DNA of 42,999 nt, from NCBI GenBank assembly GCA_016342325.1, contig JAEINR010000053.1, positions 1 to 42,999 on the forward strand, in the 5' to 3' direction. Both the position numbers and the translations under genes were made by a program. This DNA is from Desulfobacterium sp. (lineage in GTDB: Bacteria > Desulfobacterota > Desulfobacteria > Desulfobacterales > Desulfobacteraceae). The stretch's first letter is position 1; every line of letters starts with the position of its first letter. The notes below the pieces were generated by a model. It did not search any database. It was not told where the DNA came from and was given only the letters and a program-made list of their open reading frames with translations. Below, piece by piece: positions 14,216 to 31,320 of the stretch.

Positions 14216-14270
14216 CCGGACAACTCTGATTGTCTTGCCAAAATAATACGAAAATCGGAGATATGAATAA
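14216..14270 (-). repeat. Dispersed intergenic repeat, copy A (internally shortened)
   Basis: Read on the minus strand, it contains CGTATTATTTTGGCAAG, then CAATCAGAG and TTGTCCGG, collinear with the other copies (16536, 22729, 26815 and 31245) but missing roughly 17-20 bp in the middle. It begins two bases after the iorA stop codon. Confidence 0.65.
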
Positions 14271-14310
14271 AACCGTTATTTTGCCGGAACTTTTTTAAGT
14301 GAGATGAAAA

Positions 14311-14883
14311 ATGGATGAATTCAATGCATATCTGATAGGTGTCGGAGGCCAGGGCATTGGTCTTTTGAGTGAAGTCCTCATACGGGCTGCTGACCATGCA
14401 GGTCTCAGGGTCAAGGGGGTGGACACCCACGGCCTGGCCCAGCGGGGGGGCACGGTGATTTCCCATCTGCGAATGGGGGATCGGGTCTCTTCGCCCATGG
14501 TTCCCCGGGGCAAGGCAGACCTGGTGGTGGCCCTTGAACGGAATGAAGCGCTCAGGGGGGTGAATACGGCCTCAAAAAAGGGCGGTGCCCTGGTTTACTA
14601 CGATACGGTGTGGCAGCCCCTGGGGGTTCGCCTGGGCCATACGGAACCCGTGGGGGAAGATCATATTGGGGCGCTGTGCCGGCAAAAAGATGTCCGGCTT
14701 TACAAGGTGTATGACCCGGAACTTGTTGAGCCCCGCATGCAGAATATTGTTGTGCTGGCAACGGTTGCAAAGCATGGGTTGATCCCCACTGTCCTGGATA
14801 TCCATTACCGCCGGGCCATGGCGGATCTTATGCAAGGGAATATGCTGACTAAAAACATGGCGTTGTTTGACGCAAAAATTTGA
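14311..14883 (+). CDS. iorB: Indolepyruvate:ferredoxin oxidoreductase, beta subunit
   Basis: Protein of 190 aa, the pyruvate/ketoisovalerate oxidoreductase gamma domain. It shows the nucleotide-binding motif LIGVGGQGIGLLSEVL, then VKGVDTHGLAQRGGTVISHLR, RGKADLVVALERNEALR and the C-terminal NIVVLATVAKHGLIP, typical of IorB. It forms the catalytic heterodimer with IorA, encoded 96 bp upstream with copy A of the dispersed repeat in the gap. The Shine-Dalgarno is weak. The next small gene begins 24 bp downstream, so the three are probably cotranscribed. Confidence 0.95.
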   Translation: MDEFNAYLIGVGGQGIGLLSEVLIRAADHAGLRVKGVDTHGLAQRGGTVISHLRMGDRVSSPMVPRGKADLVVALERNEALRGVNTASKKGGALVYYDTVWQPLGVRLGHTEPVGEDHIGALCRQKDVRLYKVYDPELVEPRMQNIVVLATVAKHGLIPTVLDIHYRRAMADLMQGNMLTKNMALFDAKI

Positions 14884-14906
14884 TGCAAAAAACGGAGGTG
14901 ATTGAG

Positions 14907-15140
14907 ATGGGCGATCCAACGGACGGATCCAAGGTCACGGTGTTTTCGGTGTTTGATTTTTACCCGGGCCAAAAAATATATATCGATGGCGGTCCCCGAA
15001 AGGGCGACTGGGAGGTGGTTAACGTAACGGAGAAGAAGGTCCGGCTCAGGTGCCCGGTCAGTTTAAGGGAATTTGAATGGGACCGTTTCTGTTATCGTGT
15101 GGCGGAGCGGGTATTCACAACCTGGCCCCAGAAAGATTAA
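14907..15140 (+). CDS. Small conserved-looking protein of unknown function downstream of iorB
   Basis: 77 aa with no signal peptide or membrane segment. The frame is open from 14880, but a perfect GGAGGTGA at 14894-14901 places the start at ATG 14907 (MGDPTDGSKVTVFSVFDF). The middle (KIYIDGGPRKGDWEVVNV) looks like a small beta-rich fold, and the end (EFEWDRFCYRV) is rich in aromatics. Its position directly behind iorAB suggests cotranscription, but I do not recognise the family. Confidence 0.75.
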   Translation: MGDPTDGSKVTVFSVFDFYPGQKIYIDGGPRKGDWEVVNVTEKKVRLRCPVSLREFEWDRFCYRVAERVFTTWPQKD

Positions 15141-15198
15141 TGACTCTAATTGAAAATCTTGCACATAAAATTTAACGATTGAGCGAACAGGAGAAATT

Positions 15199-15654
15199 AT
15201 GGATGTAAATACCTACAAGAATATTATCAACATGGCCATCGCTAATGAGATAGAGGCCCAGGTGTTTTACGGGGCTGCCGCGGTAAAAGTGAAAGATGCC
15301 TATCTTAAGGAGATGTTTGAACACTTTGCGAAAGAGGAGAAGATGCATGAAAAGCTGCTCAGGAACATACTGAAAAGCAGCACCATCCATCTCCACTTTA
15401 GTGAAGATATTGACTATAAAGTGGCTGAAACCGTTGATGAACCGAGCCTGACCACGGACATGAAGCCTGCGGACGCCATCGCCCTTGCCATGAAAAAAGA
15501 GGAACAAGCCTTAAAAGAGTACACCCTGCTTGCACAAAATTGCCAGGATCCGGAACAGAAAAAAACGTTTCTGGATCTTGCCGCCATGGAGCGTGGGCAC
15601 AAGCTGAAACTTGAAAAGGCGTTTTTGGACGTGGGGTATCCTGAGGCATGGTAG
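15199..15654 (+). CDS. Rubrerythrin-like ferritin-family diiron protein (no rubredoxin domain)
   Basis: 151 aa forming a four-helix ferritin-like domain. Diiron ligand motifs are visible: ANEIEAQVFY, KEEKMHEK (ExxH), KEEQALKEY and MERGHKLKLE (ExxH). The C-terminal rubredoxin domain of classical rubrerythrin is absent; a separate rubredoxin gene lies about 1 kb away. Such proteins reduce peroxide or store iron in anaerobes. AGGAG precedes ATG. Its stop overlaps the possible start of the DUF2156 gene. Confidence 0.9.
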   Translation: MDVNTYKNIINMAIANEIEAQVFYGAAAVKVKDAYLKEMFEHFAKEEKMHEKLLRNILKSSTIHLHFSEDIDYKVAETVDEPSLTTDMKPADAIALAMKKEEQALKEYTLLAQNCQDPEQKKTFLDLAAMERGHKLKLEKAFLDVGYPEAW

Positions 15655-15656
15655 GC

Positions 15657-16547
15657 ATGGATTTGGCGTTTCACCCCATATCCCTTGAACGGCAGCCGGA
15701 GTATTCGGCGCTGTTTTCCCTTTGTCCCGTAAAATCGTCGGATTACAGCTTTTTGAATCTCTGGGCATGGGCAGAGGAGTATGGCCTTGAATGGGCGTGG
15801 AAAGATGATCTTGTCTGGATCCGCCAGACCCGGCCCGAAACATTCTACTGGGCGCCGGTGGGGGCCTGGGACCAGGTGAACTTTCAGCGGTGTCTTGGAG
15901 AACATTTCAAGGCGGGGACTGTTTTCATTCGGATTCTCCAACCTTTGCTGGAAATATGGAAAACCGCCATGGTCCCTGGCGTGGAATGGGAAGCGTCCCG
16001 TGACCATTGGGATTATCTCTATGCCGCAAAAGAGTTGATTGAACTTCGGGGCAACCGGTTTCACAAAAAGAAAAATCTGGTGAACCAGTTCAGGAAGCTT
16101 TACAACTACCAGTACTTAGCCTTTGACAGCACCCTGATCGGACGTGCCATGGATATGCAGGAAGACTGGTGCACCTGGCGGGATTGTGAGTCATCCGAAG
16201 CCCTGGCTGCAGAAAACCGGGTCATTTCCAGGGTGCTCAATAAATGGACGGCGTTGCCGGGAATCATGGGGGGGGCCATTCTTGTGGACGGTCAAATGGT
16301 TGCCTACACCATTGGGGAACAATTGTCCGACGATACACTGGTGATCCATTTTGAAAAAGGTGATACCCAATTCAAAGGGGGGAACCAGGCTATCAACCAG
16401 ATGTTTCTTGAACATTCCGGAATCGACGCATCCTTTGTCAACCGGGAACAGGATCTTGGGAATGAAGGGCTCCGCAAGGCCAAACTCTCCTATCACCCCG
16501 TGGGGTTTGTTGAAAAATGCAGGGTTCTTCTAACTGCTTCGCACTGA
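15657..16547 (+). CDS. DUF2156 (GNAT-fold) domain protein
   Basis: About 296 aa, related to the C-terminal domain of phosphatidylglycerol lysyltransferases (DUF2156, tandem GNAT fold). Recognisable segments are SDYSFLNLWAWAEEYG, YAAKELIELRGNRFHKKKN, and the C-terminal KGGNQAINQMF and NREQDLGNEGLRKAKLSYHP. No membrane domain is attached, so it probably acts on a soluble acceptor. ATG 15657 has GAGG about 10 nt upstream; ATG 15648 would overlap the rubrerythrin-like gene by 7 nt. The last codons lie inside copy B of the dispersed repeat, so the C-terminal residues may come from the repeat. Confidence 0.88.
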   Translation: MDLAFHPISLERQPEYSALFSLCPVKSSDYSFLNLWAWAEEYGLEWAWKDDLVWIRQTRPETFYWAPVGAWDQVNFQRCLGEHFKAGTVFIRILQPLLEIWKTAMVPGVEWEASRDHWDYLYAAKELIELRGNRFHKKKNLVNQFRKLYNYQYLAFDSTLIGRAMDMQEDWCTWRDCESSEALAAENRVISRVLNKWTALPGIMGGAILVDGQMVAYTIGEQLSDDTLVIHFEKGDTQFKGGNQAINQMFLEHSGIDASFVNREQDLGNEGLRKAKLSYHPVGFVEKCRVLLTASH

Positions 16548-16610
16548 ATCTTCGTGTTATTTTGGCAAGGAAACCAGAGATCTTCTTTGGTTTAGGCTTG
16601 TCCAGGTTAG
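16536..16610 (+). repeat. Dispersed intergenic repeat, copy B
   Basis: Begins GCTTCGCACTGAATCTTCGT, has the core TTATTTTGGCAAG and ends GGCTTGTCCAGGTTA. It overlaps the last codons and stop of the DUF2156 gene and runs up to the rubredoxin terminator. It matches copies C and E over nearly its whole length. Confidence 0.75.
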
Positions 16611-16613
16611 GAT

Positions 16614-16657
16614 AAAAAAAGCCTCTCCCCTTGGTCTTTTGGACCAAAGGGAGAGGC
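16614..16657 (-). terminator. Rho-independent terminator of the rubredoxin gene
   Basis: Arms 16621-16636 and 16642-16657 pair at 15 of 16 positions around a 5-nt loop. On the minus strand the stem is followed by seven T (16620-16614). It lies 10 bp after the rubredoxin stop codon. Confidence 0.9.
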
Positions 16658-16666
16658 GATCAGAGG

Positions 16667-16828
16667 TTAGTCCTCTTTTGAAAATTCATCTTTTCCAGCG
16701 CCGCACACTGGGCAGGTCCAGTCATCCGGAATATCGTCAAAGCTTGTTCCGGCATCGACCCCATTGTCTGGATCCCCGCTTGCAGGGTCATACACATAAC
16801 CGCATAGATCGCATACATACTTGTCCAT
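16667..16828 (-). CDS. Rubredoxin
   Basis: Small iron protein of 53 aa with the four iron ligands in [16 protein letters not shown] and [13 protein letters not shown] (two CxxCG-type knuckles), plus the conserved aromatic and acidic residues of the family. It passes single electrons at low potential to oxygen-detoxifying enzymes, for example rubrerythrins or rubredoxin:oxygen oxidoreductase. GGAG precedes ATG by 7 nt. It lies downstream of cydAB and a DUF2892 gene on the same strand and has its own strong terminator. Confidence 0.97.
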
Positions 16829-16857
16829 CGTTTGTCTCCTTATTGTTGTGATTAATC

Positions 16858-17061
16858 CTATTTAAACGCTTTTCCGGATCGAAACCCCGCCGCCCTGAGA
16901 ATGTGGGCAAGGGGGCAAAAACCGGTGAATGCCGCCTGGAACATATTGGCGCCGACAAAGGCGGTGACCCATAGCCAGTGGAGGCTGTGGGAGACCGCAA
17001 ATATAGTGGTGATCAGTATCATGGCACCGGCAAAGGCAAAAATAATTCTATCGATGTTCAT
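16858..17061 (-). CDS. DUF2892 (YgaP-type) small inner-membrane protein
   Basis: 67 aa with two predicted membrane helices ([18 protein letters not shown] and [19 protein letters not shown]) followed by the signature [11 protein letters not shown]2892 proteins often accompany sulfurtransferase or stress genes; their biochemical role is unsettled. GGAGG stands 9 nt before ATG. It sits between cydB and rubredoxin on the same strand, 29 bp from rubredoxin, so the two are probably cotranscribed. Confidence 0.9.
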
Positions 17062-17096
17062 GGGGTTGAACCTCCTTTTTTGCTTGCAGGTTACTA

Positions 17097-17220
17097 CTCA
17101 AGGTTTTTTCCGGTCACCTTATCCCTTGGCAGGTCAGTTCCCAAGGTCTTTCTCGGTCACCTTATCCCTTGGTAGGCTAGTTCTCAAGGTTTTTCTCGGC
17201 CATCTTTCCCTGGGTTAATA
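17097..17220 (-). repeat. Three degenerate tandem copies of the cydB 3' end
   Basis: On the minus strand the last codons of cydB (KGKVTEDDLEY-stop) are followed by three diverged copies. The first reads QGKMAEKNLEN-stop in frame. The next two read KGKVTEKDLGN-stop and KGKVTGKNLE-stop after one extra T. Landmark CTCAAG/CCCAAG positions 17097, 17140, 17183 and 17221 give periods of 43, 43 and 38 bp. Confidence 0.75.
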
Positions 17221-18231
17221 CTCAAGATCGTCTTCGGTCACCTTTCCCTTGAACAGGTTGTAGGCCCAGATCTGATAGGCAATAACCAGGGGAAGAAAGA
17301 TCACCACCACCGTGAGCATGATCTTCAGGGTCAAGGGACTTGAGGATGCATTGAATGCGGTCAGGGTGGCTGCGCTGTCGTGAATGGAGGGGTACAGGGC
17401 GGGGAACAGTCCCGCAATGCCGAAAAAGGTGGCCCCAACGATGGTAACGGCCGATGAAAACCAGGCCTTGAAGTAGTGCTGTTTGGTCAGGAAATATTTG
17501 ATGCCGAAAAGGGCTGCCACGGTCACAAGGATGATCAGAAACAGTGCCGGGTACTTGAAATAGTTGTCGTAGAGGGAGGTGGCAAAAAAACTTGCTCCCA
17601 AAAAGAGAACGGCCAGGGCAACAAGGAACATCCAGAGCTTATGGGCCGTTGCCACCGCCCTGTCATGGAGATCACCCTCGGTCCTGATGGCCAGCCAGTT
17701 GGCGCCGTGGACCATGAAGAGAACCAGGAATAGCGTTCCCCCGAGGAGTCCGTAGGGGTTGAGGAGCATGAGCAGGTTTCCATGGTAGAGGCCCTGGCTG
17801 TCAAAGGGGATGCCCCTGAAGATGTTGGCAAAGGCGACGCCAAAGAGAAGTCCGGGGACGGCGCTTCCCACAAAGATGCAGGTGTCCCAGACCCGCTTCC
17901 AGCCCGGGGAGTCGATCTGGCCACGGAATTCAAAGGCAACGCCCCTGAGAATCAGGGCAAAGAGTATCATCAGCAGGGGGGTGTAAAGGGTTGAAAACAT
18001 CACCGCATACACCTTGGGAAAGGCGGCAAAGGTGACGCCGCCTGCGGTGATCAGCCACACCTCGTTTCCGTCCCAAAGGGGGCCCACGGAATTGATCATC
18101 ATCCGTCGGTCCGTATCGGATTTTCCCAGAAAGGGATAGAGGGTTCCAACACCAAAGTCAAATCCGTCTGTCATGAAAAAGATCGCCCATAGAAGGCCCC
18201 AAAGGAAGAACCAGGTTGTCTGCAATATCAT
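17215..18231 (-). CDS. cydB: Cytochrome bd ubiquinol oxidase, subunit II
   Basis: 338 aa, the usual length, with about eight or nine membrane helices. Family landmarks are FFMTDGFDFGVGTLYPFLG near the N-terminus, GPLWDGNEVWLITAGGVTFAAFP, FRGQIDSPGWKRVWD and the C-terminal IMLTVVVIFLPLVIAYQIW. With CydA it reduces O2 to water with quinol electrons, which in a strict anaerobe serves mainly oxygen removal. It follows cydA by 65 bp. Its last codons are the template for the degenerate tandem repeat immediately downstream. Confidence 0.97.
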   Translation of the reverse strand: MILQTTWFFLWGLLWAIFFMTDGFDFGVGTLYPFLGKSDTDRRMMINSVGPLWDGNEVWLITAGGVTFAAFPKVYAVMFSTLYTPLLMILFALILRGVAFEFRGQIDSPGWKRVWDTCIFVGSAVPGLLFGVAFANIFRGIPFDSQGLYHGNLLMLLNPYGLLGGTLFLVLFMVHGANWLAIRTEGDLHDRAVATAHKLWMFLVALAVLFLGASFFATSLYDNYFKYPALFLIILVTVAALFGIKYFLTKQHYFKAWFSSAVTIVGATFFGIAGLFPALYPSIHDSAATLTAFNASSSPLTLKIMLTVVVIFLPLVIAYQIWAYNLFKGKVTEDDLEY

Positions 18232-18296
18232 GGTTGTAATCTCCTGTTTTTGTGAATGTGCGTTTGAAAGAACATGTCAGTGGCTGGCCTGCTCGG

Positions 18297-19607
18297 TTAT
18301 ACCTCTTCCGGTACCGGTCCTTTGATGGCCTTTTTGGCCATGAGAAAGAATCCGACTGCCCCCAAAAGACCGTAGACAATGACAAAGGCGATAAGGGAGA
18401 TCATCACCTGGTAACCGGCAATGGGTGAGGCGGCCTCGGAGGTTCTCATCAACCCGTAGACGATCCAGGGCTGGCGACCGACCTCGGCCACCATCCAACC
18501 CATCTCAATGGCTAAATAGGGCAGGGGCATGGCCCAGAACATTATTTTGAGGTAGCCGGGGGAGTCCACCAGGCGGTTACGCTTGAAAAAACCAACCAGG
18601 GTGAGGAGGATGAAGAGGGTACCCAGGCCCACCATGATCCTGAACCCGATAAAGGTAAGGAGCACCGGGGGACGGTCTGCTTTGGGGAAATCGTTAAGGC
18701 CCCGTACCGTTGCATTGAAATCGTGGAATCCAAGGAAGCTTAAGAGACCGGGCAGGGAACCAAATTCCCAGAGATTTTTTTCAGCCTCCTGGTCGGGCCA
18801 GGCAAAGAGGAGAATGGGAGCGTTGGCCTGGGTGTCCCAATGGGCTTCCATGGCGGCAAGTTTGGCCGGCTGGACCTCTGCCACGTGGATACCGTGGAGA
18901 TCCCCGGTAAAGGCGACGGCAAAGGATGAGACAAGTCCGAACACCAATGCGATTCTGAAGGATCGGTTGAAAAGTGACACGTGCTGTTTCTTTAACAGGT
19001 GAAAGGCGCTGATCCCCATGACGAAAAAGGCGCCAACGAGGCAGGCCGAGGGAATCATGTGGAGGATCTCCAGGAGGGCAAATTTGTTAAAAATAAGCGC
19101 GGTGAAGTCGGTCATCTCCGCCCGGTTGTTGCGGATGGTGTAGCCCACGGGATGCTGCATGAAGCCGTTGGCCGTGAGGATCCACACGGCTGAAAAATTG
19201 CCCGCAATGGCCACAAGCCACATGACGCCGGCATGGGCCTTGGCGGAGAGTTTTTTCCAGCCGAAGATCCATATGCCGATGAAGGTGGATTCAAGGAAAA
19301 AGGCAACCGTGGCCTCAATGGCCAGCAGGGAGCCGAACACATCCCCCACATATTCCGAGTACCTTGACCAGTTGGTACCGAACTGGAACTCCAGGGTGAT
19401 GCCCGTGACAACACCCACGGCAAAATTTATCAAGAATAGCTTACCCCAGAATTTGGTCATTCTCAGGTACTCTTTGTCCCCGGTCCTGGCATACTGGGTT
19501 TCCATGTAGGCAATTATGATGGAGAGTCCCAGGGTCAGTGGAACAAACAGGAAGTGGAACATGGTGGCAACGGCAAACTGAAGCCTTGATAAAAAAACAG
19601 GATCCAT
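18297..19607 (-). CDS. cydA: Cytochrome bd ubiquinol oxidase, subunit I
   Basis: 436 aa from ATG 19607, which has GGAG 6 nt upstream. An open extension of 68 codons upstream lacks membrane-protein character and is excluded. Haem ligands expected from E. coli CydA are in place: His18 (MFHFLF), Glu in IEATVAFFLEST, His in LLEILHMIPS, and Met in GFRIMVGLG. The quinol loop is of the short type (HIHVAEVQ-like segment GIHVAEVQPAKLAAMEAHWD) and the GRQPW motif is present. The upstream 190 bp contain a perfect palindrome at 19801 that may be an operator. Confidence 0.97.
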   Translation of the reverse strand: MDPVFLSRLQFAVATMFHFLFVPLTLGLSIIIAYMETQYARTGDKEYLRMTKFWGKLFLINFAVGVVTGITLEFQFGTNWSRYSEYVGDVFGSLLAIEATVAFFLESTFIGIWIFGWKKLSAKAHAGVMWLVAIAGNFSAVWILTANGFMQHPVGYTIRNNRAEMTDFTALIFNKFALLEILHMIPSACLVGAFFVMGISAFHLLKKQHVSLFNRSFRIALVFGLVSSFAVAFTGDLHGIHVAEVQPAKLAAMEAHWDTQANAPILLFAWPDQEAEKNLWEFGSLPGLLSFLGFHDFNATVRGLNDFPKADRPPVLLTFIGFRIMVGLGTLFILLTLVGFFKRNRLVDSPGYLKIMFWAMPLPYLAIEMGWMVAEVGRQPWIVYGLMRTSEAASPIAGYQVMISLIAFVIVYGLLGAVGFFLMAKKAIKGPVPEEV

Positions 19608-19800
19608 GGTTTCTCCTATGGGTTGTTGAATAAACGTTGGTTCGGTCCGGACAACAGGGCCCTTGCCCAAGGAGCGGGCCGTTGTTGATCGAAAAAAGTT
19701 AATCTTAATGTTGTATAAACTAAATTTTCGGATTTTGCCATGGGTCGTTGTCATTTTTGCAACAGACCCGGCTGTCATCCCAAGACCAAAAGTTGAACTA

Positions 19801-19819
19801 CACAATAGCAACTATTGTG
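19801..19819. promoter_or_regulatory. Perfect palindrome upstream of cydA
   Basis: CACAATAG-CAA-CTATTGTG, 8-bp arms with a 3-bp spacer, about 195 bp before cydA. It is a candidate dimer-binding operator. It resembles but does not match the Rex consensus (TTGTGAA...TTCACAA), so the protein is not assigned. Confidence 0.5.
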
Positions 19820-19865
19820 CCAAAGGGCGTTCTTCTTGTCAAGGGACCTGGCCCGGGACAGGGGG

Positions 19866-19916
19866 CTGTCTCATTGCAACATAACCGTATCATACGAATC
19901 TGATGCAATGAGACAG
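19866..19916. promoter_or_regulatory. Inverted repeat, candidate enhancer site for a sigma-54 activator
   Basis: Perfect 13-bp arms CTGTCTCATTGCA (19866-19878) and TGCAATGAGACAG (19904-19916) flank 25 bp that contain an inner palindrome CGTATCATACG (19886-19896). The centre is about 128 bp upstream of the start predicted from the sigma-54-like promoter at 19993, a normal distance for enhancer-binding proteins. Confidence 0.6.
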
Positions 19917-19992
19917 GGACACCTGGGGCCAGGAAGCCCCGGCAACGGCCCTGACGCCTTCCTCCTACCCCTTGGAGACTGGAAGACCAAGG

Positions 19993-20007
19993 TGGCACGG
20001 TTGCTGC
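19993..20007 (+). promoter_or_regulatory. Candidate sigma-54 promoter of the small-protein/ferredoxin operon
   Basis: TGGCAC-GGTTG-CTGC matches the -24 element perfectly and the -12 element with one change, with GG-N10-GC spacing. The predicted start is near 20019, 45 nt before the ATG at 20064. Confidence 0.55.
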
Positions 20008-20063
20008 ACTGTTTATTTTACATAAAGGCGTATTTAGTTAAACAGGTGGGAGAATTTTTCCAG

Positions 20064-20947: not shown

Positions 20948-20952
20948 TGCGT

Positions 20953-21945: not shown

Positions 21946-22728
21946 ATGTTGAAAAACAAACTTGATGTTATTTATCGCCGCTACAACAAGCGGGAGTATG
22001 TCGCCCCGGATCCCCTCCAGTTCCTCTATGACTATCCCACGGTCAGCGAACGGGAGATTGCAGGGCTTGTTGCCGCCCTTCTCGCCTATGGCCGGGTCGC
22101 CCAGATACTCAAGGCCGTGTCCCAGGTGCTTGATCTTCTTGGACCCTCGCCCCGGGACTATCTGTTAAATCAAGGGGAGAAGGATATTGTCCGTGATTTT
22201 GAGACGTTTAAATACCGGTTTACCACCGGAGAACACCTTTCCACCCTGCTCCTGGGGGTCAAGGATGTGCTCAACCGGTTCGGATCCCTTGAGGCCTGCT
22301 TTCTTGACGGCTACTCTCCGGACCATGGGACCGTGATTCCGGCCATGTCCGCCTTTGTTAAAGAGATATCGGCCAGGGGCGAGACCGGCATTCTTGCCGC
22401 AGATCCCGATAAAAAGAGCGCCTGTAAACGCAACAACCTGTTTCTGCGGTGGATGGTCAGGCACGACCGGATCGATCCCGGCGGCTGGGATAACATTTCC
22501 GGCGCCGCCCTGGTGATCCCCCTGGACACCCACATGTTCCGGGTGGGAACCCTGCTGGGGTTTACCCGTCGAAAACAGGCCAACCTGAAAACCGCCCTGG
22601 AGATCACCCAGGGGTTCAGGCTGCTCTCCCCGGTCGATCCTGTCCGGTATGACTTTTGCTTAACACGGTTCGGCATCAGGGAGGAGCTGGGCCCTGGGGA
22701 TCTTAAAATGATGTTGGAAACATCTTAG
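21946..22728 (+). CDS. TIGR02757 family protein (DUF2400)
   Basis: 260 aa, the usual size. Recognisable segments are REIAGLVAALLAYGRVAQILKAV near the N-terminus, KRNNLFLRWMVRHDRIDPGGW in the middle and IPLDTHMFRVGTLLGFTRRKQANLKTALEITQGFR towards the end. The helical layout is reminiscent of HhH DNA-repair glycosylases, but the activity is not established. AGAGGA precedes ATG. Copy C of the dispersed repeat follows the stop codon directly. Confidence 0.92.
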   Translation: MLKNKLDVIYRRYNKREYVAPDPLQFLYDYPTVSEREIAGLVAALLAYGRVAQILKAVSQVLDLLGPSPRDYLLNQGEKDIVRDFETFKYRFTTGEHLSTLLLGVKDVLNRFGSLEACFLDGYSPDHGTVIPAMSAFVKEISARGETGILAADPDKKSACKRNNLFLRWMVRHDRIDPGGWDNISGAALVIPLDTHMFRVGTLLGFTRRKQANLKTALEITQGFRLLSPVDPVRYDFCLTRFGIREELGPGDLKMMLETS

Positions 22729-22804
22729 CCAGGACAAGCCAGAATAGAAAAAATATCGGACGCCCTTGCCAAAAGAATACGAAAGTAAGAATTGAGAAGC
22801 TAAA
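22729..22804 (-). repeat. Dispersed intergenic repeat, copy C
   Basis: On the minus strand it begins GCTTCTCAATTCTTAC, carries the core GTATTCTTTTGGCAAG and ends GGCTTGTCCTGG. It aligns without gaps to copy E and fills the space between the TIGR02757 stop and sfsA. Confidence 0.75.
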
Positions 22805-22820
22805 GAGAGGAAGCAGAAGA

Positions 22821-23630: not shown

Positions 23631-23648
23631 GTTGCGGAGGTAAGTCTT

Positions 23649-23672: not shown

Positions 23673-23773
23673 AGGGGAATGTGGAAGCGCAGTCAATGCC
23701 GATGCCCGCCCCATGTCCTCGCCGACAAAGTGTTGATGGTTTGAGCGATTATTCTATAATTCAGATGGGGGGT

Positions 23774-24664: not shown

Positions 24665-24794
24665 TCTTTTATATGAAACGCCGGCTAAAACGATGTAATC
24701 AGTGAATTTAGCTCTGCGTCTTCGACACATTTTTCGTTGTGGACGAAGCACAAATACCATGCGCCGGCCATGCCGGTTAATATGGGGAGATAAC

Positions 24795-26795
24795 ATGTCA
24801 GCCTTGTCCGAAATCTTTAAGAGCAGCCTGCGGATGAAGATCCTCATCCCTGTGGGAATTTTTGTATTCATTTCGTTTGGGATCCTTGCTGTTGTGGTGT
24901 CGTCCTTCCAGGGGCGGCAGCTCTCTGCCATGGGAGATCAGGTCAACACCCTGCTCAAAGACTCCAGCCGGGATACCCAAAAGGATTTTGAGCAGCTGGA
25001 TTCAGATCTTACCGGCTGTTTCAGGACCATGTCCGCCACGGCCACGGAACAGCTGTCCGGGTCCACGGCCGCTGCATTGGCGGCAGAGAAAAACCGCTCC
25101 TCCGACGAGTGGGAAGCGTGCTTGAAAAAAAGTGCCGAATCCCTGGCCATGCTCCTTGCCGCGGTGGCGCCCCCTGCCATTGTCGCCAACAACTTTTCCG
25201 ATCTCACCGGCTATGTCAAGGCAGCCGCCAGTGATCCCAATCTTGTGTTTGCCCTTTATCTTAACCCCAAGGGCCGGCCCTATGTCCGGTACCTGGACAG
25301 GGAAAATCCGAAAATACAGGCGTACGTCGCACTCGGCACCGGCAAGCGAAAGTATGAAAAGGTGTTGTCCGCATCCCTTGATGATCCAGGGGTGGTCCGG
25401 GTGGAAAGAATATTGGAACTTGAGGGCAAACCCCTGGGGCGCCTGGTCCTGTGTATGGACAAGAAATCGGTGACCCAAAAGATCGACGGCATGTCGAAAC
25501 GGTTCAGTGCCATGATCGACGCCAATGCAAAAAGGATCGAAGGGGTGGTTGGCACCGAGGCCGCACGGGTGATGGAGCGGGTTGATCTTTCCCTGGGCCA
25601 TGTAAAGGCCAAGGGCCTTACCCTTGTTACGGACACGGCAGCAAGCATCGATCTTGCCGGAAAGCAGGGAGAGCGCCGGGTCCGGATCATCCTCATGGTT
25701 GCAGGGCTTGTCTGCGGTGGACTCATGCTTTTTGTCACGGGATTTCTGGTGGTAACCCTGTTGATCAAACCCGTGGAAGAGGTGGCGGCGAATCTCAGGG
25801 ATATTGCCCAGGGTGAGGGAGATCTCAAGACCCGGCTTGAGATAAAAAGCCGGGATGAGGTCGGGGCACTTGCCTCCTGGTTCAACGTTTTTATCGAGAA
25901 GATCCAGGGGGTGATTGTGGAGATCTCCGAAAATACCGGGGTGACCACCGATTCCTGCAAGGACCTTCTCCAGGTGTCGATACTTCTGTCCCAGGGGGCC
26001 CAGGAGACAACGGTCAAATCCAATACCGTTGCTGCGGCTGCCGAGGAGATGAGTTCCAACATGGTGCTGGTGGAGGAGGAGACCCGGGACGCGTCAGATA
26101 ACATGGTGACCATTTCTGCGGCCGTGGAGCAGATGACCACTTCCATGGCGGATATCGCGGCAAACGCCGGAAAATCAAGTGTTGTCACGGAACGGGCCGT
26201 GACCTATTCCACCAATGCCTCCAACCAGGTCGCCGTTCTCGGCAACGATGCCGAGGAGATTACAAAGGTGACCGAGGTGATCATGGCGATCTCGGAGCAG
26301 ACCAACCTTCTTGCCCTCAATGCCACCATCGAGGCGGCACGGGCAGGGGAGGCCGGACGGGGATTTGCCGTGGTCGCAGGTGAGATCAAGGCATTGGCGG
26401 CCCAGACATCAGGGGCCACCAGCGACATCCGGGAGAAGATCGAAGGGATCCGTTCCTCCACCGCCATGACCGTTGGGGAGATCGAGAAGATCTCATCGGT
26501 GATCAGCGAGGTCAACACCATCACCGGCACCATTGCCGCGGCCGTTGAAGAGCAGTCCGTGACCACCCGGGAGATCGCCGGAAACGTGGCCCAGGCCACC
26601 CTGGGAATCGGGAACATCAGCGAGAGAGTGGCCCAATCCTCTTCTGTTTCCGGGGAGATCGCCAGGGATATCTCCGAGGTTAATGGCACCTCCTCGGGTA
26701 TCTCTGACAGCAGCGTTCAGGTGAAATCCAGCGCCGAAACCCTGGCCGCCCTTGCCGCAAGTCTCAAGGAGCAGGTCTCCCAATTTTCCGTGTGA
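24795..26795 (+). CDS. Methyl-accepting chemotaxis protein (MCP3) paired with the PhnD-like protein
   Basis: 666 aa from ATG 24795 (GGGGAGA upstream). First membrane segment at about 15-37. A large periplasmic region of about 270 aa contains a Cache-like part ([25 protein letters not shown]). The second membrane segment is followed by HAMP ([14 protein letters not shown]) and the MA domain with tip [16 protein letters not shown]. The C-terminal arm retains the repeated [20 protein letters not shown] stretch present in MCP1 but lost in MCP2. No CheR-docking tail is seen. Proximity to the PhnD-like gene suggests that a ligand-loaded binding protein docks on the periplasmic domain. Confidence 0.95.
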
Positions 26796-26814
26796 CCATT
26801 GGGATCGTTTTTTA

Positions 26815-26888
26815 GCTTCTTAGCTCTGATTCTTGTATTCTTTTGGCAATAGAATTATATTTTTTGGGTTCTGGTGTGTTCAATTTAG
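26815..26888 (+). repeat. Dispersed intergenic repeat, copy D
   Basis: Begins GCTTCTTAGCTCTGATTCTT, with the core GTATTCTTTTGGCAAT, then TTTTTTGGGTTCTGG and the end GTGTTCAATTTAG. It aligns to copies C and E with one or two small gaps and lies between the MCP3 stop and the Crp/Fnr gene. Confidence 0.7.
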
Positions 26889-26925
26889 GGTTTACACAGG
26901 GGGACGGAAGATATAAAAGAGAACC

Positions 26926-27603
26926 ATGAAAACAATCATGGATACAATCGGCTTCGTCCCCCTGTTCCAGGGGCTTGACAGGGAAAATCTTGAGGAAATC
27001 GCCTCGGTGTGTGAGCGGCGAACGGTGAAAAAGGGGGAACTGATCTTCACGGACGGGGACCCCTGTAACGGGTTCTATGTGGTCGAGACCGGCAAGGTCA
27101 AGATCTTCAAGCTTTCTTTTATGGGCAAGGAGCAGATCCTCCACATCTACGGCCCGGGAAAACCCTTTGGCGAGGTGCCGGTGTTCACCGGAAAGCAGTT
27201 CCCCGCATCTGCCCTGGCCGTGACCAACGCCACCTTGATTTTTTTTCCGAGAAAGCGGTTTGTCGAGCTGATCGTATCCCACCCCAACCTGGCCCTCAAC
27301 ATGCTGGCCGTGCTCTCCATGCGGCTCAAGGAGTTTACGGTCATGGTGGAAAACCTCGCCCTCAAGGAGGTGCCGGCCCGGTTGGCATCCTATCTCATGG
27401 CCACCCGCAAGGAGCAGGAACACCCGGGCCCGGTCCGTCTGCCTGTCTCCAAAACCCAGCTGGCAGGTCTCCTGGGAACGACTCCTGAGACGATCTCCAG
27501 GGTCTTGACCCGCATGACCCAGGACGGTCTCATCCAGGTGGACAACCGGGTGATCACCCTCCTCGACCCCGACGGGGTGACGGATCTCTCCGAGCAGGGA
27601 TAA
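26926..27603 (+). CDS. Crp/Fnr-family transcription regulator (HcpR-like candidate)
   Basis: 225 aa. An N-terminal cyclic-nucleotide-binding-type beta-barrel (VPLFQGLDRENLEEIA, GELIFTDGDPCNGFYVVETGKVKIF, GKPFGEVPVFTG) leads through a dimer helix to a Crp-type winged helix with VSKTQLAGLLGTTPETISRVLTRM. The four N-terminal cysteines of Fnr are absent, so it does not carry an Fnr-type cluster. It is encoded near two promoters with FNR-type palindromes, one before hcp. In sulfate reducers such a gene near hcp is HcpR, which responds to nitrosative stress. The HcpR assignment rests on context. Fragments of a second copy of this gene's 3' end occur at 28096 and 29660. Confidence 0.92.
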   Translation: MKTIMDTIGFVPLFQGLDRENLEEIASVCERRTVKKGELIFTDGDPCNGFYVVETGKVKIFKLSFMGKEQILHIYGPGKPFGEVPVFTGKQFPASALAVTNATLIFFPRKRFVELIVSHPNLALNMLAVLSMRLKEFTVMVENLALKEVPARLASYLMATRKEQEHPGPVRLPVSKTQLAGLLGTTPETISRVLTRMTQDGLIQVDNRVITLLDPDGVTDLSEQG

Positions 27604-27789
27604 AGTGCCTGCAGGGAAGTAAAACCCTGCTCAAGATGCGATCTTTCATAAATCTTTGTTGCGGATCACGGATAAAATTTGATACCATCGGATTGTCCGG
27701 ATCGGACGGGACTTACCGCAATTCACACGCTATCATTTCTGAAAAGCGAATCACAGACTTTTGCCGGGCATGTATGCAAACCCAAGCTG

Positions 27790-27873
27790 ATGGCGTTTAA
27801 ATTTTTCTGTTCCTCCTGCGGAAGGGGAGCGGTCAAGGAGGATGACATCTGTAAACCATCACCCATTAAATAA
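27790..27873 (+). CDS. Possible 27-aa cysteine-containing mini-protein
   Basis: Short frame encoding MAFKFFCSSCGRGAVKEDD then ICKPSP. CxxCG followed by a third Cys looks like half a zinc ribbon. No clear Shine-Dalgarno is visible, and it ends 15 bp before the ferredoxin start. It may be a real short protein, a leader, or a degraded remnant. Confidence 0.3.
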   Translation: MAFKFFCSSCGRGAVKEDDICKPSPIK

Positions 27874-27888
27874 CAGGCGGATTTTAAC

Positions 27889-28086
27889 ATGGGAAAAATC
27901 GTTGTGATCGATGAGGATGAATGTACGGGCTGCGAGTCATGTGTCGAACTTTGCCCGGAAGTCTTTGAATTTGACAGTGACGCTGAAAAGGCGATCGTGA
28001 TCAAGCCCGAAGGAGGAGATGAGGAGTGTATCGAGGAGGCGATGGATTCATGCCCCGTTGAATGCATCTTCTGGAAAGATGGGTAA
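27889..28086 (+). CDS. [4Fe-4S] ferredoxin
   Basis: 65 aa with the monocluster pattern DECTGCESCVELCPEVF and the terminal ligand in DSCPVECIFW; the remaining sequence is acidic. It resembles Desulfovibrio and Thermotoga-type single-cluster ferredoxins, small soluble carriers of one electron. Given the neighbours (Crp/Fnr regulator, Hcp and its associated Fe-S protein), it could feed electrons to Hcp, but no direct evidence exists. It is separated from the regulator by 285 bp and converges on the Fe-S protein gene with a shared hairpin between. Confidence 0.93.
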   Translation: MGKIVVIDEDECTGCESCVELCPEVFEFDSDAEKAIVIKPEGGDEECIEEAMDSCPVECIFWKDG

Positions 28087-28114
28087 CGGCTTTCTTCGAG
28101 CAGGGCTGGGGCTG

Positions 28115-28156
28115 GGCATGAAGACCGTTTGAGGTCTTCATGCCATGGCTGTTTTT
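28115..28156. terminator. Convergent terminator hairpin between ferredoxin and Fe-S protein copy 1
   Basis: Perfect 12-bp arms GGCATGAAGACC (28115-28126) and GGTCTTCATGCC (28133-28144), 6-nt loop, and a T-run at 28152-28156 on the plus strand. The same hairpin, with one mismatch, recurs before copy 2 at 29716. Confidence 0.8.
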
Positions 28157-28892
28157 AATTGAGAATTTCTCCCCTTCGGGTGATCACCGTGGTGGACAGG
28201 TCTATCTCTTTGCCGGCAAGCTCCATGGCCTGCTTTACGATGCCGGGCAGACCTGAGCAGCAGGGCACCTCCATGATCAGGACCGTGATGCTGTTGATGG
28301 TATTGGCCGCAAATATCTGGGTGAACTTCTCCACATAGGAATCCTTATCGTCAAACTTGGGGCACCCCATCATCACCACCTTATCCTTGAGAAAATCCTC
28401 GTGGAAGGCGGCATAGGCAACGGGTACGCAGTCCGCCGTGACAAGGAGGTCCGCTTCTTTGAGGAAGGGCGCAGTGGGGGGCACAAGCCTGATCTGAACC
28501 GGCCAGTGGCCCAGGGCGGAGTCGGCGGAGGCGGAATTCATCCGGGCAGGCGTGTTTGCCGTCTGGCAGGTGCCTGCCTGGGGAAAGGTCGCAAGTTGTT
28601 CCGAAGGGCAGCCGCAGCCTGAGGGTGCAGGCGTTTTTTGCTCTTTTGGGGCCTCCAGATAGGCCTCCACCGCCGCTTCGTCAAAGGGATCCGCCTCCCG
28701 CTCCACCAGCTTGAGGGCGTCCTGGGGACACTCCCCGAGGCAGGCGCCGAGACCGTCGCAATATTGATCCTTGACCACCTTGGCCTTGCCGTCGATGATC
28801 TTTATGGCACCTTCGGCACAGGAGGGAACGCAGTTGCCGCAGCCGTCGCAGCGTTCTTCATCTATCTCTATTATTTTTCGTATGGTTTTCAT
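28155..28892 (-). CDS. Hcp-associated Fe-S protein, copy 1 (own FNR-type promoter)
   Basis: 245 aa. Two ferredoxin motifs open the protein: CDGCGNCVPSCAEGAI (full four-Cys set) and YCDGLGACLGECPQDAL, in which Leu replaces the second Cys. A linker with the cysteines SGCGCPSEQ follows, then a C-terminal domain with LLVTADCVPVAYAAFHEDF, VVMMGCPKFDD and EVPCCSGLPGIV, so more metal sites are likely. Homologues sit beside hcp in Desulfovibrio (the DVU2543-2544 pair, from memory). It is about 90 percent identical to copy 2 at 29756 and differs mainly in the linker. Confidence 0.9.
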   Translation of the reverse strand: MKTIRKIIEIDEERCDGCGNCVPSCAEGAIKIIDGKAKVVKDQYCDGLGACLGECPQDALKLVEREADPFDEAAVEAYLEAPKEQKTPAPSGCGCPSEQLATFPQAGTCQTANTPARMNSASADSALGHWPVQIRLVPPTAPFLKEADLLVTADCVPVAYAAFHEDFLKDKVVMMGCPKFDDKDSYVEKFTQIFAANTINSITVLIMEVPCCSGLPGIVKQAMELAGKEIDLSTTVITRRGEILN

Positions 28893-29201
28893 TATATATT
28901 CTCCCTGGTTGAGGAAATTGTTTTTGTTTCACACCCTGGATATAAGATAGTGCATATTTGTCCCGTTTGCCTTGATATGGATCAAGAAAAGTATGTTTTT
29001 TAAATCCGGTGATCATGGTGATGGGGATTTTTGATCCTCAGGGCAGCGGTTTATTCATATCAAAAGCTGAAACAGCCTATTCGAAAGAATTTAAATGCAT
29101 TGCCCATGAAATACCTTTGTATTAAAAAAGGACTGTTGGCGAGAAAAGAAATATGAAAAGTGAGTAAAGATGGAAAAATATTCAGATACAGGTAAAAGGC
29201 T
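28893..29201. other. Intergenic region upstream of Fe-S copy 1 and the AT-rich gene
   Basis: 309 bp. It holds the Fe-S copy 1 leader and promoter (to 28986) and then AT-rich sequence with no recognisable element before the GTG at 29202. Confidence 0.5.
28944..28986 (-). promoter_or_regulatory. FNR/HcpR-type promoter of Fe-S protein copy 1
   Basis: Perfect palindrome CTTGAT-ATGG-ATCAAG (28971-28986). On the minus strand, 21 bp later, comes TATCTT (28949-28944) as -10. The inferred start near 28937 puts the palindrome centre at -41.5, the class II activator position. The whole element and leader are homologous to the hcp promoter. Confidence 0.8.
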
Positions 29202-29621
29202 GTGAAATATATTGAAATCAATAAACGAATAACTGATTTTTATTCGATAACTTTAGAAGACATACTTTTGAGAATTCAACCATATATTGAAAACTTTAAA
29301 TGGTCAATTCAACTTATCGATGGGGTTGGGAATATTGAAAAGATTATTGGAATGAATATTGTTGAATTGGAAAAATACTGTGACAATTCACCGAAAGGCT
29401 ATATTATTGATTTTAGCAAGTTAATGACATTGTCAAAAACTTTTAAGGATATTATAGATATACTCATTGTAGGATGTGAAGAGGAAGGAAAAATACCCAA
29501 AGCCTATAAGGATGATAACTGGGAAAATAATTGCAACGTAATTATCTCAAGAGAGGATAGTTCCTTATGGCAATTGTTTTCTCAAAATTCAAATATATTC
29601 ATGAATTTGAGAAAACAGTAA
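29202..29621 (+). CDS. AT-rich orphan gene, unknown function
   Basis: 139 aa from a GTG start, soluble, no signal peptide. The sequence (YIEINKRITDFYSITLEDIL, KGYIIDFSKLMTLSKTFKDI) matches no family I can name. Size and style recall small immunity-like proteins, but that is only an impression. Base composition is far more AT-rich than its neighbours and codon use differs (many ATA, AAA and TTA), suggesting recent acquisition. It sits alone between the two copies of the Fe-S protein gene, next to a fragment of a Crp/Fnr gene. The Shine-Dalgarno is weak. Confidence 0.65.
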   Translation: MKYIEINKRITDFYSITLEDILLRIQPYIENFKWSIQLIDGVGNIEKIIGMNIVELEKYCDNSPKGYIIDFSKLMTLSKTFKDIIDILIVGCEEEGKIPKAYKDDNWENNCNVIISREDSSLWQLFSQNSNIFMNLRKQ

Positions 29622-29659
29622 CATGATCATTTCTAAGGCAAATACCGGCCCTTTCAAAG

Positions 29660-29710
29660 ATAACTCTCTTTGATCCTGACGGGGTGATGGATCTTTTCGA
29701 GCAGGGATGA
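29660..29710 (+). pseudogene. Remnant of the 3' end of a second Crp/Fnr gene
   Basis: The frame ITLFDPDGVMDLFEQG-stop aligns with the C-terminus of the regulator at 27603 (ITLLDPDGVTDLSEQG-stop), with 42 of 51 bases identical. Nothing upstream of 29660 is clearly regulator-like. A shorter piece (TTCGAGCAGGG) of the same tail is present at 28096. Confidence 0.75.
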
Positions 29711-29715
29711 GGCTG

Positions 29716-29745
29716 GGCATGAAGACCGTTTGAGGCCTTCATGCC
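29716..29745. terminator. Second copy of the convergent hairpin
   Basis: Arms GGCATGAAGACC (29716-29727) and GGCCTTCATGCC (29734-29745), one mismatch, same loop GTTTGA and same following ATGGCTGTTTTTAA as at 28115. Confidence 0.75.
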
Positions 29746-29755
29746 ATGGCTGTTT

Positions 29756-30481
29756 TTAACGGAGAATTTCTCCCCGGGGGGTGATCACCGTGGTGGACAG
29801 GGGGATCTCGTTGCCGGCAAGTTCCATGGCCCGCGTTACAATGCCGGGCAGGCCGGAGCAGCAGGGCACCTCCATGATCAGGACCGTGATGCTGTTGATG
29901 GTGTTGGCCGCAAATATCTGGGTGAACTTCTCCACATAGGACTCCTTATCGTCAAACTTGGGGCACCCCATCATCACCACCTTATCCTTGAGGAAATCCT
30001 CGTGGAAGGCGGCATAGGCCACGGGCACGCAGTCCGCCGTGACAAGGAGGTCCGCTTCTTTGAGGAAGGGCGCAGTGGGGGGCACAAGCCTGATCTGAAC
30101 CGGCCAGTGGCCCAGGGCGGAGGCGGAATTCATCCGGGCAGGCGTGTTTGCCGTCTGGCAGGCGCCTGCCTGGGGAAAGGTCGCAAGCTGTTCCGAAGGG
30201 CAGCCGCAGCTCGAGGGTGCAGCTTCCTTGTGCTCTTCAGACTTAAGATAGGCTTCCACCGCTTCTTCGTCAAAGGCTTCCGCCTCCCGCTCCACCAGCT
30301 TGAGGGCGTCCTGGGGACACTCCCCGAGGCAGGCGCCGAGACCGTCGCAATATTGATCCTTGACCACCTTTGCCTTGCCGTCGATGATCTTTATGGCGCC
30401 TTCGGCACAGGAAGGAACGCAGTCGCCGCAGCCGTCGCAGCGTTCTTCATCTATTTCGATTATTTTTCGTGTGATTTTCAT
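29756..30481 (-). CDS. Hcp-associated Fe-S protein, copy 2
   Basis: 241 aa paralogue of the protein at 28155, with the same N-terminal motifs (CDGCGDCVPSCAEGAI; YCDGLGACLGECPQDAL with Leu in place of the second Cys), a shorter, partly different linker (AYLKSEEHKEAAPSSCGCP) and an almost identical C-terminal domain (VVMMGCPKFDD, EVPCCSGLPG). It has no FNR-type promoter of its own and begins 3 nt after the HD-domain gene stop codon, so it is cotranscribed with that gene. It is probably the ancestral location, with copy 1 derived from it. Confidence 0.9.
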   Translation of the reverse strand: MKITRKIIEIDEERCDGCGDCVPSCAEGAIKIIDGKAKVVKDQYCDGLGACLGECPQDALKLVEREAEAFDEEAVEAYLKSEEHKEAAPSSCGCPSEQLATFPQAGACQTANTPARMNSASALGHWPVQIRLVPPTAPFLKEADLLVTADCVPVAYAAFHEDFLKDKVVMMGCPKFDDKESYVEKFTQIFAANTINSITVLIMEVPCCSGLPGIVTRAMELAGNEIPLSTTVITPRGEILR

Positions 30482-30484
30482 TGT

Positions 30485-31222
30485 CTACTCTCCCTGGTTC
30501 AGCAGAACCGCTGCTGCCTTTTCCTTTCCATGGTCTGTGAGAAAGGATTTGGCGATAATTCTTTCAAGCCGTTCTTTATCCATGGTGCCGTCCTTGTTCT
30601 CCTCCTGGAGATTGGTGATGAGGTCTGCATCGTAAAGCACCTTGAAGTTGGTGGTCTCCACCTCCCTTGGGTGATGGTGGTGGCCCACAATATCGCACAC
30701 CTCCTGGATCAGGTCCTCCTTGGCATTGAGTTTCTCAAGGAGGGTGCGGGCAATGGGCGGTCCTTCCAGCTCTTGAAACTTTGGGGCACTGGAGTTGTGT
30801 TTGCGTTCCGCCTCTTTGATGCCGATGTCGTGGAGATAGGCGGCACAAAGAATGATGGCCAGGTTTCCCTGTTCTTTCTTGCCAATGGCTTCAGCAAATC
30901 TCGCAACCCTTGAAGCATGGCCAATGCGCTTGAAATCGGTATGGAAATAGCGCTTCATCTCCACGGCCACCCTGTCCTTGAGAAGATCGTCCCTGTTCTG
31001 GAGAAACTCTTCAGGCAGGGTGCCGAGGCACTGCTCCGCATACTGGCAGTAGGAGGCGCACCCGAAATCCATGTTGGGGTTGACCATCTTTTTTCCGCAG
31101 CCTTTGCATTTCCGTGCCGTGTCATCCTTGAAAAATTCGATGGTGGCGCCGCATTTTGGGCACGGTGTTTCAAAGATGGCTTCCTTGTTCCAGTATTGGG
31201 TGTCCTGACCCGGGCATTTCAT
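30485..31222 (-). CDS. HD-domain phosphohydrolase with N-terminal zinc ribbon
   Basis: 245 aa. Residues about 20-47 form a zinc ribbon (PCPKCGATIEFF then KCKGCGKKM). A second cysteine group follows at about 52-66 (FGCASYCQYAEQCLG), which could bind another metal. The rest is an HD domain with GHASRVARFAEAIG, AAYLHDIGI (the HD pair), VGHHHHPRE and LYDADLITNL. Such enzymes cleave phosphomonoester or nucleotide bonds with metal help; the substrate is unknown. It is tightly linked to Fe-S copy 2 (3 nt) and lies 188 bp downstream of hcp on the same strand. GGAGG precedes ATG. Confidence 0.9.
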   Translation of the reverse strand: MKCPGQDTQYWNKEAIFETPCPKCGATIEFFKDDTARKCKGCGKKMVNPNMDFGCASYCQYAEQCLGTLPEEFLQNRDDLLKDRVAVEMKRYFHTDFKRIGHASRVARFAEAIGKKEQGNLAIILCAAYLHDIGIKEAERKHNSSAPKFQELEGPPIARTLLEKLNAKEDLIQEVCDIVGHHHHPREVETTNFKVLYDADLITNLQEENKDGTMDKERLERIIAKSFLTDHGKEKAAAVLLNQGE

Positions 31223-31244
31223 AGTGGGCCTCCTTTTGGGTTTC

Positions 31245-31320
31245 GCTTCTGAGCTCTGATTTCCGTGTTATTTCGCCAAGAGAATCAGATCGTTTTTTTG
31301 GTTCCGGCTTGTCCAGGTTA
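31245..31320 (+). repeat. Dispersed intergenic repeat, copy E
   Basis: Begins GCTTCTGAGCTCTGATTT, has CGTGTTATTTCGCCAAG in the core, then TTTTTTTGGTTCC and the end GGCTTGTCCAGGTTA. It lies between the HD-domain gene and hcp. It is the most complete copy together with C. Confidence 0.75.

Follow-up and report, generated by a model that had tools for sequence, protein, structure and literature searches.

An 82-nt intergenic repeat of Desulfobacterium ends in a 26-nt tail module found on unrelated repeats in Desulfobacterota and Chloroflexota

Copies of the repeat in the window and in the genome

The window analysed here is a 42,999-nt stretch of the Desulfobacterium sp. contig JAEINR010000053.1 (assembly GCA_016342325.1). 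It contains a short dispersed repeat between its genes, and all five related copies (A to E) claimed by a first-pass annotation of this DNA are present (Table 1). The element is 82 nt long, intergenic, and sharp-edged, with the consensus edges TTTAGCTTCTTAGCTCTGATTTTCGTGTTATTTTGGCAAGAGAATCAGAAAACTTTTTTGGTTCTGGCTTGTCCAGGTTAGG and unconserved flanks on both sides. Comparison of the copies with their earlier description revealed that (i) copy A, said to lack part of its middle, is incomplete, with only the head half left, and has a decayed counterpart, by eye, in the same-genus genome G001; (ii) one gap is required between copies C and E, which had been aligned at full length without gaps; (iii) of three copies placed at stop codons, B and C overlap gene ends (the gene upstream of B enters the element and stops at 16545-16547, and the gene at 21946-22728 before C has its stop codon, 22726-22728, inside the element), whereas the decayed end of copy A lies just past the stop codon at 14214; and (iv) the ends of a 95-copy consensus (described below) are not complementary, in agreement with the claimed absence of terminal inverted repeats. 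The G001 sequence at the place of copy D is TTTTTAGGGTTTACAC. Copy E itself folds otherwise than the consensus head stem-loop at 31256-31288, and its final five tail bases are perhaps derived from the target.

Table 1. Copies of the element in the window and the sites compared with G001. The 14-copy model is sequence-only and was built from copies that include B, C, D, and E, so the E-values of these four are flattering; HMM, hidden Markov model.
Feature	Position	Strand	Details
Copy A	14225-14265	-	Old remnant, head half only; head-only HMM positions 8-48, E 1e-9
Copy B	16529-16613	+	Full length; 14-copy model E 3.2e-20; no copy at the syntenic G001 place
Copy C	22722-22805	-	Full length; 14-copy model E 4.4e-17; absent in G001, no copy at the G002 place
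Copy D	26810-26891	+	Full length, diverged; 14-copy model E 5.9e-16; absent in G001
Copy E	31240-31323	+	Full length; E 2.5e-23; consensus positions 1-82 = 31241-31322; absent in G001, no copy at the G002 place
Copy E, head motif TTAG-N3-CTTAG	31242-31253	+	Here TTCGCTTCTGAG; basis, 95-copy alignment
Copy E, head stem-loop	31256-31288	+	Consensus CTGATTTTC ... GAGAATCAG; basis, consensus fold
Copy E, 26-nt tail module	31297-31322	+	Here TTTGGTTCCGGCTTGTCCAGGTTAAG; hairpin 31304-31316
Sites empty in G001	Window B, C, D, E		Synteny
Sites empty in G001	L061 407, 14542, 19391		Other DNA occupies the place of 407 and 19391
Sites empty in G001	L074 2108; 9316/9387 (tandem pair); 14935-15078 (second repeat, same tail)		Synteny
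Sites empty in G001	L073 12167 (shortened variant), 13038, 13686		Synteny
Intact copy in both genomes	L061 11118		About 82% identical by eye
Decayed copies in both genomes	Window A, L061 6318		Synteny
Ambiguous site	L074 12663		Synteny with G001
No syntenic match in G001	L073 6424		

The genome of the window (G000; 6.67 Mb, 205 contigs) was searched with a profile, as the first-pass annotation had proposed, together with its relatives. This search gave at least 155 matches to the 14-copy model in G000 (150 candidates scored), and 11 of 38 neighbourhood genomes, G000 counted, contain this family, designated family 1, at E ≤1e-3. Further copies occur well beyond chance: a pattern of the last 23 tail bases, allowing at most two mismatches, matched G000 157 times, versus 0 for the pattern read backwards. 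With 116 candidates scored per genome, the copies at E ≤1e-3 number 119 in G000, 68 in G001, 41 in G004, 36 in G003, 23 in G013, 15 in G002, 5 in G018, 2 in G011, and 1 each in G007, G020, and G036.

From 104 distinct matches (E ≤1e-3) in 76 loci, 9 partial ones were dropped and 95 full-length copies aligned, mostly from G000 and the remainder from relatives. This alignment has the sharp length boundary that had been named as a mark of a repeat family. Pairwise identity averages 80%, and that between nearest neighbours has a median of 89% and a maximum of 97.5%. Copies sit between genes in either orientation, and the four gene arrangements around them, called with a home-made gene finder, account for 27, 25, 19, and 16 of the 95. 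Eight copies remain, three of them flagged within a called frame and the rest without a called neighbour on one or both sides. The base preceding the element is T in 58, A in 17, G in 11, and C in 9 copies. Three tandem copy pairs have one TTAG-like word in common. A locus on the minus strand (L068:9513-9709) consists of a full copy followed by three head-only tandem units of about 40 nt joined at GTTAAG. Stop codons were not supported as a favoured target, with open-frame ends at the edges in 11/88 and 10/88 copies versus 9/88 for an internal-TAG control (7 of the 95 copies could not be placed).

A coding repeat was rejected, as no reading frame is conserved among the 95 copies. The similar peptides on the complementary strand, previously singled out, are not special: with insertions kept, their frame is open in 56/95 copies, versus 86 and 80 for two forward frames. 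When minority insertions are dropped, a loose form of the peptide is found in 66/95 copies, 41 of them without an internal stop. The length departs from 82 nt by a number that is not a multiple of three in 33/95 copies.

Empty sites in related genomes

Synteny between G000 and G001 was read at 18 sites (Table 1), and at 13 of them the insert is missing in G001, one of the 13 being a second repeat with the same tail. G002 also has no copy at the places of C and E, and at these two sites an insertion in the G000 line is therefore the more parsimonious explanation. The approximately 70 kb of G001 compared contains a single copy, which is common to both genomes, and no private one; another copy lies in L082, outside the compared part. 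We conclude that the element is very probably mobile. The earlier proposal of a decayed mobile sequence is supported as to mobility, given the lineage-specific insertions and empty sites, but not as to mere decay, because nearest neighbours are up to 97.5% identical versus about 82% for the intact copy shared with G001.

Hairpins of the head and tail

Folding of the consensus as RNA gave a row of hairpins that includes the head stem and the tail hairpin (z -2.3). The folds of single copies are mixed, with z -2.0 in a different fold for copy B and z +0.7 for copy E. Covarying positions, named earlier as a sign of a repeat family, are present in the tail hairpin and weak in the 95-copy set, where only positions 6-13 stand out (11/94 two-sided) and the pair counts of the head stem-loop show no clear covariation. 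The signal at positions 6-13 may reflect subfamilies, because some other families lack that mini-hairpin by eye.

The tail hairpin (CYGG-CTTGT-CCRG) shows compensatory changes. Over 52 tails (38 distinct), 95.4% of cells are paired versus 90.9% after shuffling, and 16 two-sided changes were counted versus 7.0 in shuffled sets; 0 of 500 shuffles were as high, a figure that is not a probability because the tail sequences are related, and slid controls gave none. The search patterns did not favour pairing: the second pair was written as Y and a fixed A, in which C-G cost one mismatch and C-A none, and in the outer pair a two-sided change counted as two mismatches and a one-sided change as one. 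There were 0 Rfam matches in the window at gathering scores, and a scan of 7 loci at E ≤5 gave two, both of them weak and from L113. The suggestion of an RNA-level element is neither shown nor excluded, since conserved hairpins would suit single-stranded DNA equally.

A tail module on unrelated bodies

The last 26 nt of the element, TTTGGTTCYGGCTTGTCCRGGTTAGG, form a separate module, in which unrelated repeats of other Desulfobacterota and of Chloroflexota terminate as well. Among the matches listed, the stretch common to unrelated bodies typically runs from three bases before GGTTC through the TTAGG end. When named genome contigs were scanned for the tail together with GGCAAG, 31 stretches were found, mostly in Desulfobacterium, Desulfamplus, and a deltaproteobacterial metagenome-assembled genome, and also in two Chloroflexi contigs, one Dehalococcoidia contig, and one alphaproteobacterial contig, the last of which failed as a copy on inspection. 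The 17 tails of the Chloroflexi genome G038 (backward control, 0) belong to at least two bodies that differ widely from each other.

With phylum names taken from named sequence records, the tail was found in 31 of 297 genomes of the phylum of G000, G000 counted (157 tails in G000, 39 in G313, 16 in G124, 12 each in G225 and G271, 9 in G088, and at most 3 in the others), and the backward control gave one match in each of 3 genomes. In the phylum of G038, 14 of 301 genomes have it (40 tails in G346, 17 in G038, 9 in G519, two or three in four genomes, and one in seven); the backward control there gave single matches in 13 genomes, and single tails are therefore at chance level. The body is missing at 9 of 120 tails, which leaves the tail only. 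Viral contigs gave 0 matches to two exact patterns and plasmids 0 matches with the full element; five partial phage matches of 18-21 nt were taken as chance. The tail in the form CGGCTTAGG was seen on two betaproteobacterial plasmids (26 nt, E = 0.05 each): at L312:1501-1526 in Paraburkholderia pOLGA1, where it is intergenic, and at L313:1501-1526 in Polaromonas sp. P1-6, where it falls inside a gene annotated as hypothetical and is about 215 bp away from a gene for a tyrosine-type recombinase.

A plan shared by several families

Several families follow one plan, in which a TTAG head and a stem-loop are followed by a variable middle and the tail. By eye, a head near TTAG-N3-CTTAG with a stem-loop, whose loop often ends in TGG, is present, besides family 1, in two families of G313, in G225, G271, and G181/G255, and in part of G124 and G088. 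With one mismatch allowed and within 400 nt upstream, it was found at 8 of the 45 tail places listed. The G346 head differs, being CCTAACC or GTTACC followed by a TTCTTG...CAAGAA stem-loop; in several G346 copies the head is GCCTAACC, which is complementary to the tail end GGTTAGG. By eye, G519, G067, and most of the genomes with a single tail showed no clear head, nor did some copies of G088 and G124.

The middles range from about 10 to more than 200 bases and are often imperfect palindromes, containing for instance CTTCGTGTCTTCGTGGTG, AGGTGTCAGGTGTCAG, or CGCGAAGGCGGGAAT. Imperfect palindromic words of environmental genomes (CTTCGTGTCTTCGTGG, CTTTGCGTCTTTGCG, and CGCAGAGA..TCTCTGCG) were observed immediately upstream of the tail (L181, L262, L202, L217, L276, L278, and L285-L289). 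G000 and G001 also carry a second dispersed repeat, about 82 nt long (TTATTGCTCTGGTCAGACCAATTGATACC...CATTTGACCGGCACTATA) and with imperfect inverted ends by eye, which gave 13 matches in the loci examined; it lies at L074:14932-15019 and also in L063, L069, L075, L082, L163-L166, L169, L172, L174, and L175, and in L166 it abuts a family-1 copy.

Insertion joints and target word

Ten pairs of empty and filled sites were scored jointly for the ends of the element. The best total (328.0) takes the element as positions 1-77 and assigns its last five bases to the target; a close second (326.5) assigns the first five and the last one to the target, and others follow close behind. In the best joint solutions, the empty site already contains between five and seven of the end bases. 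In total over the ten sites, not at each, a TTAGG-like word is present once in the empty site and on both sides of the inserted element. At site E, TTTCG is present in both the empty and the filled site, which favours the left side. The two end words of one copy match each other no better than end words drawn from different copies (289/475 letters versus a shuffled mean of 289.5), which excludes a target duplication. When copies are ranked by age, half of the youngest quarter have the consensus base at position 81, and positions 78, 79, and 82 are nearly fixed. This pattern would suit a target-derived right-hand word TTANG.

A proposed single-strand mechanism and its alternatives

The best explanation overall, to which we give a probability of roughly 0.45, is one family of modular, gene-free mobile elements moved in trans as folded single-stranded DNA. 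An enzyme supplied in trans would recognise the head stem-loop and the tail hairpin on one folded strand and would join the element ends at TTAG-like sites. The head and tail would act as the two ends while the middle varied freely, and tandem copies with one common TTAG-like word would arise when one copy inserted at another's edge. The joints and hairpins resemble those left by HUH single-strand transposases, and IS200/IS605 elements lack inverted ends and target duplications, have hairpins close to either end, and insert at a short word. All four of these IS200/IS605-derivative features are found here. An HUH mechanism of the IS200/IS605 kind, similar to that of RAYTs (REP-associated tyrosine transposases; REP, repetitive extragenic palindrome), is possible, at somewhat less than even odds, and is the type that fits best because of the absence of inverted ends and target duplication, the unlike hairpins at the ends, and the short target word. 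In its favour, G000, the genome that received the insertions, has eight Y1 matches, and there is a weak strand bias, 52/85 copies (36 loci) agreeing with the local GC skew (by-locus permutation, p = 0.03).

A number of observations weigh against movement as folded single strands by such an enzyme. The strand bias was not seen with third-codon-position skew (p = 0.25). In the tail hairpin, neither the count of pairs that carry a two-sided change (2 versus 0.9 shuffled; 51/500) nor that of pair types (4 versus 4.1) stands out from shuffles. The side of the target word is not fixed by the joint scoring. Single sites differ, several align poorly, and position 81 matches the consensus at 0.50, 0.88, 0.58, and 0.74 from the youngest to the oldest quarter, a partial and weak fit to a target-derived base. 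The tail adjoins a Y1 gene at 0 of 38 loci in nine genomes (all 8 of G000 and 30 of the 49 listed in eight others); the single tail among these loci (L101) is an ordinary copy about 0.9 kb away. G271, with 12 tails, has two marginal Y1 matches, and G001, with 68 copies, has four broken ones. Finally, the upstream neighbours of 120 tails, nearly all from other genomes, were taken as the longest frame that has 110 codons or more and ends no further than about 600 nt before the tail, and the 25 commonest of the 199 Pfam families in the resulting 98 frames include no transposase, recombinase, or reverse transcriptase; the commonest, ABC_tran, accounts for 6/98 frames. A parent element with the same ends around tnpA was found neither in the 38 Y1 loci nor among these 25 families, and a rare autonomous copy could be hidden among the families beyond them.

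Two alternatives question present movement itself. A conserved, non-mobile regulatory or structural RNA or protein-binding site at many genes would account for the intergenic position and the hairpins, but the 13 of 18 syntenic sites that are empty in a genome of the same genus, the lack of a marked orientation preference (27, 25, 19, and 16 of 95), and the 0 Rfam matches in the window make it very improbable. The copies might instead be relics whose enzyme is gone from this line, with presence and absence partly due to deletions in G001. The mean identity of only 80%, and the single, shared copy with none private in the 70 kb of G001, speak for relics. We nevertheless regard them as quite unlikely, given that G002 also has no copy at C and E and that nearest neighbours (median 89%, up to 97.5%) exceed the roughly 82% of the intact shared copy.

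Other routes of movement have also to be weighed. The main rival is an integron- or Xer-type tyrosine recombinase, which could insert a small circle via a single-stranded site in folded form, much as happens with attC at secondary sites. The R' box of attC is GTTRRRY, which the 3' end GG|TTAGG resembles, and an element-derived left TTAG with a target-derived right TTANG is the outcome of cassette insertion; the best joint model gives the right word to the target. The lack of target duplication, the tandem pairs with one common word, which resemble a cassette array, the complementarity of several G346 heads (GCCTAACC) to the tail end, and the recombinase gene near one plasmid tail are consistent with this route. 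It is nonetheless unlikely, as the family-1 head has no RYYYAAC box, copies are mostly dispersed, G precedes the element in only 11/95 copies, and no integrase is among the 25 commonest tail-neighbour families, although no genome-wide integrase search was made. An RNA-mediated, SINE-like spread (SINE, short interspersed nuclear element), in which an enzyme that recognises a constant 3' tail copies the transcript bearing it into the target by reverse transcription, would explain one 3' tail on many bodies and the 9/120 tails without a body. Against it, the family-1 head edge is as sharp as the tail edge, and 423 kb of G000 holds 52 paired, 11 head-only, and 7 tail-only copies by the models, but by eye a diverged tail can still be made out in 7 of the 11 head-only copies and a diverged head in some of the 7 tail-only ones, which leaves no clear 5'-truncation bias. 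No reverse transcriptase is among the same 25 families, with no genome-wide search made, and we consider this spread decidedly improbable.

Comparison with known repeats

The element is a small intergenic mobile repeat without its own gene, a known kind, and by the tested features it is not a miniature inverted-repeat transposable element (MITE), a REP, or a REPIN. MITEs and ERIC-like enterobacterial repeats are short, intergenic, and non-coding. The element resembles them in these respects but has neither terminal inverted repeats nor a target duplication, and a MITE was rejected on both counts. Integron attC is a folded site of similar length with a variable middle and a GTTRRR-like 3' end. 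The element is similar in these features; by contrast, family 1, which is mostly dispersed, has no R'' box complementary to the R' box, although one is seen in several G346 copies. Eukaryotic SINEs carry the 3' tail of a partner LINE (long interspersed nuclear element), and the occurrence of one 3' tail on many bodies is similar, whereas the sharp 5' head and the lack of a clear 5'-truncation bias are not. Non-autonomous IS200/IS605 derivatives share the four features given above, but no parent element was found in the data read.

According to passages of the cited papers, a REP is a palindrome of 20-50 nt that bears the word GTAG or CGTC at one of its ends (PMC8266576, PMC3733652), CGTC REPs are without a dedicated transposase (PMC3733652), and a REPIN consists of two inverted REPs in one hairpin (PMC3116915). 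The same passages describe REPs and REPINs as short intergenic hairpins of high copy number in several phyla, with a tetranucleotide beside the hairpin, and thought to be spread in trans (PMC8266576, PMC3116915, PMC3733652). As far as these descriptions go, the present element resembles REPs and REPINs with their RAYT (TnpA-REP) as a short intergenic hairpin in high copy with a short word beside it in several phyla, but it is asymmetric, has one tail with exchangeable bodies, and no RAYT adjoins it in the 38 Y1 loci. A REP was rejected because the word here is TTAG(G)/CCTAA, not GTAG or CGTC, and a REPIN because the head and tail are different sequences with no inverted doublet. The tail words, the middle words, and the concept gave no relevant paper among the open-access PMC papers searched, and passages of the genome paper on Desulfobacterium autotrophicum HRM2 count exact repeats of at least 50 bp and name no such element.

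Other repeats in the window

A 43-nt unit is repeated four times in tandem at 17086-17252 (67-100% alike), at the edge of the gene at 17215-18231. A 95-nt repeat at 28906-29000 and 33073-33167 (81% identity) lies ahead of genes and is unrelated to the element. The window also contains two pairs of duplicated stretches, 1-1703 with 1766-3439 (96-99% identical where aligned) and 28081-28913 with 29682-30502 (92-93% identical where aligned).

Significance

Short intergenic repeats are common in bacteria, and the way of moving is known for few. Sharp ends, placeable insertions, empty sites, and a tail that crosses phyla make the ends, target word, and structure of this element directly testable. 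It is possible, though doubtful, that the families described here belong to an unrecognised modular mobile superfamily of Desulfobacterota, Chloroflexota, and perhaps Betaproteobacteria, defined by a TTAG head with a stem-loop, palindromic exchangeable middles, a 26-nt covarying tail, and an undescribed enzyme system. If true, a number of the palindromic repeats that lie between genes in environmental genomes would be accounted for as the middles of one type of element. The tail is a ready probe, and the machinery would be named by any genome where an enzyme gene is found enclosed by it.

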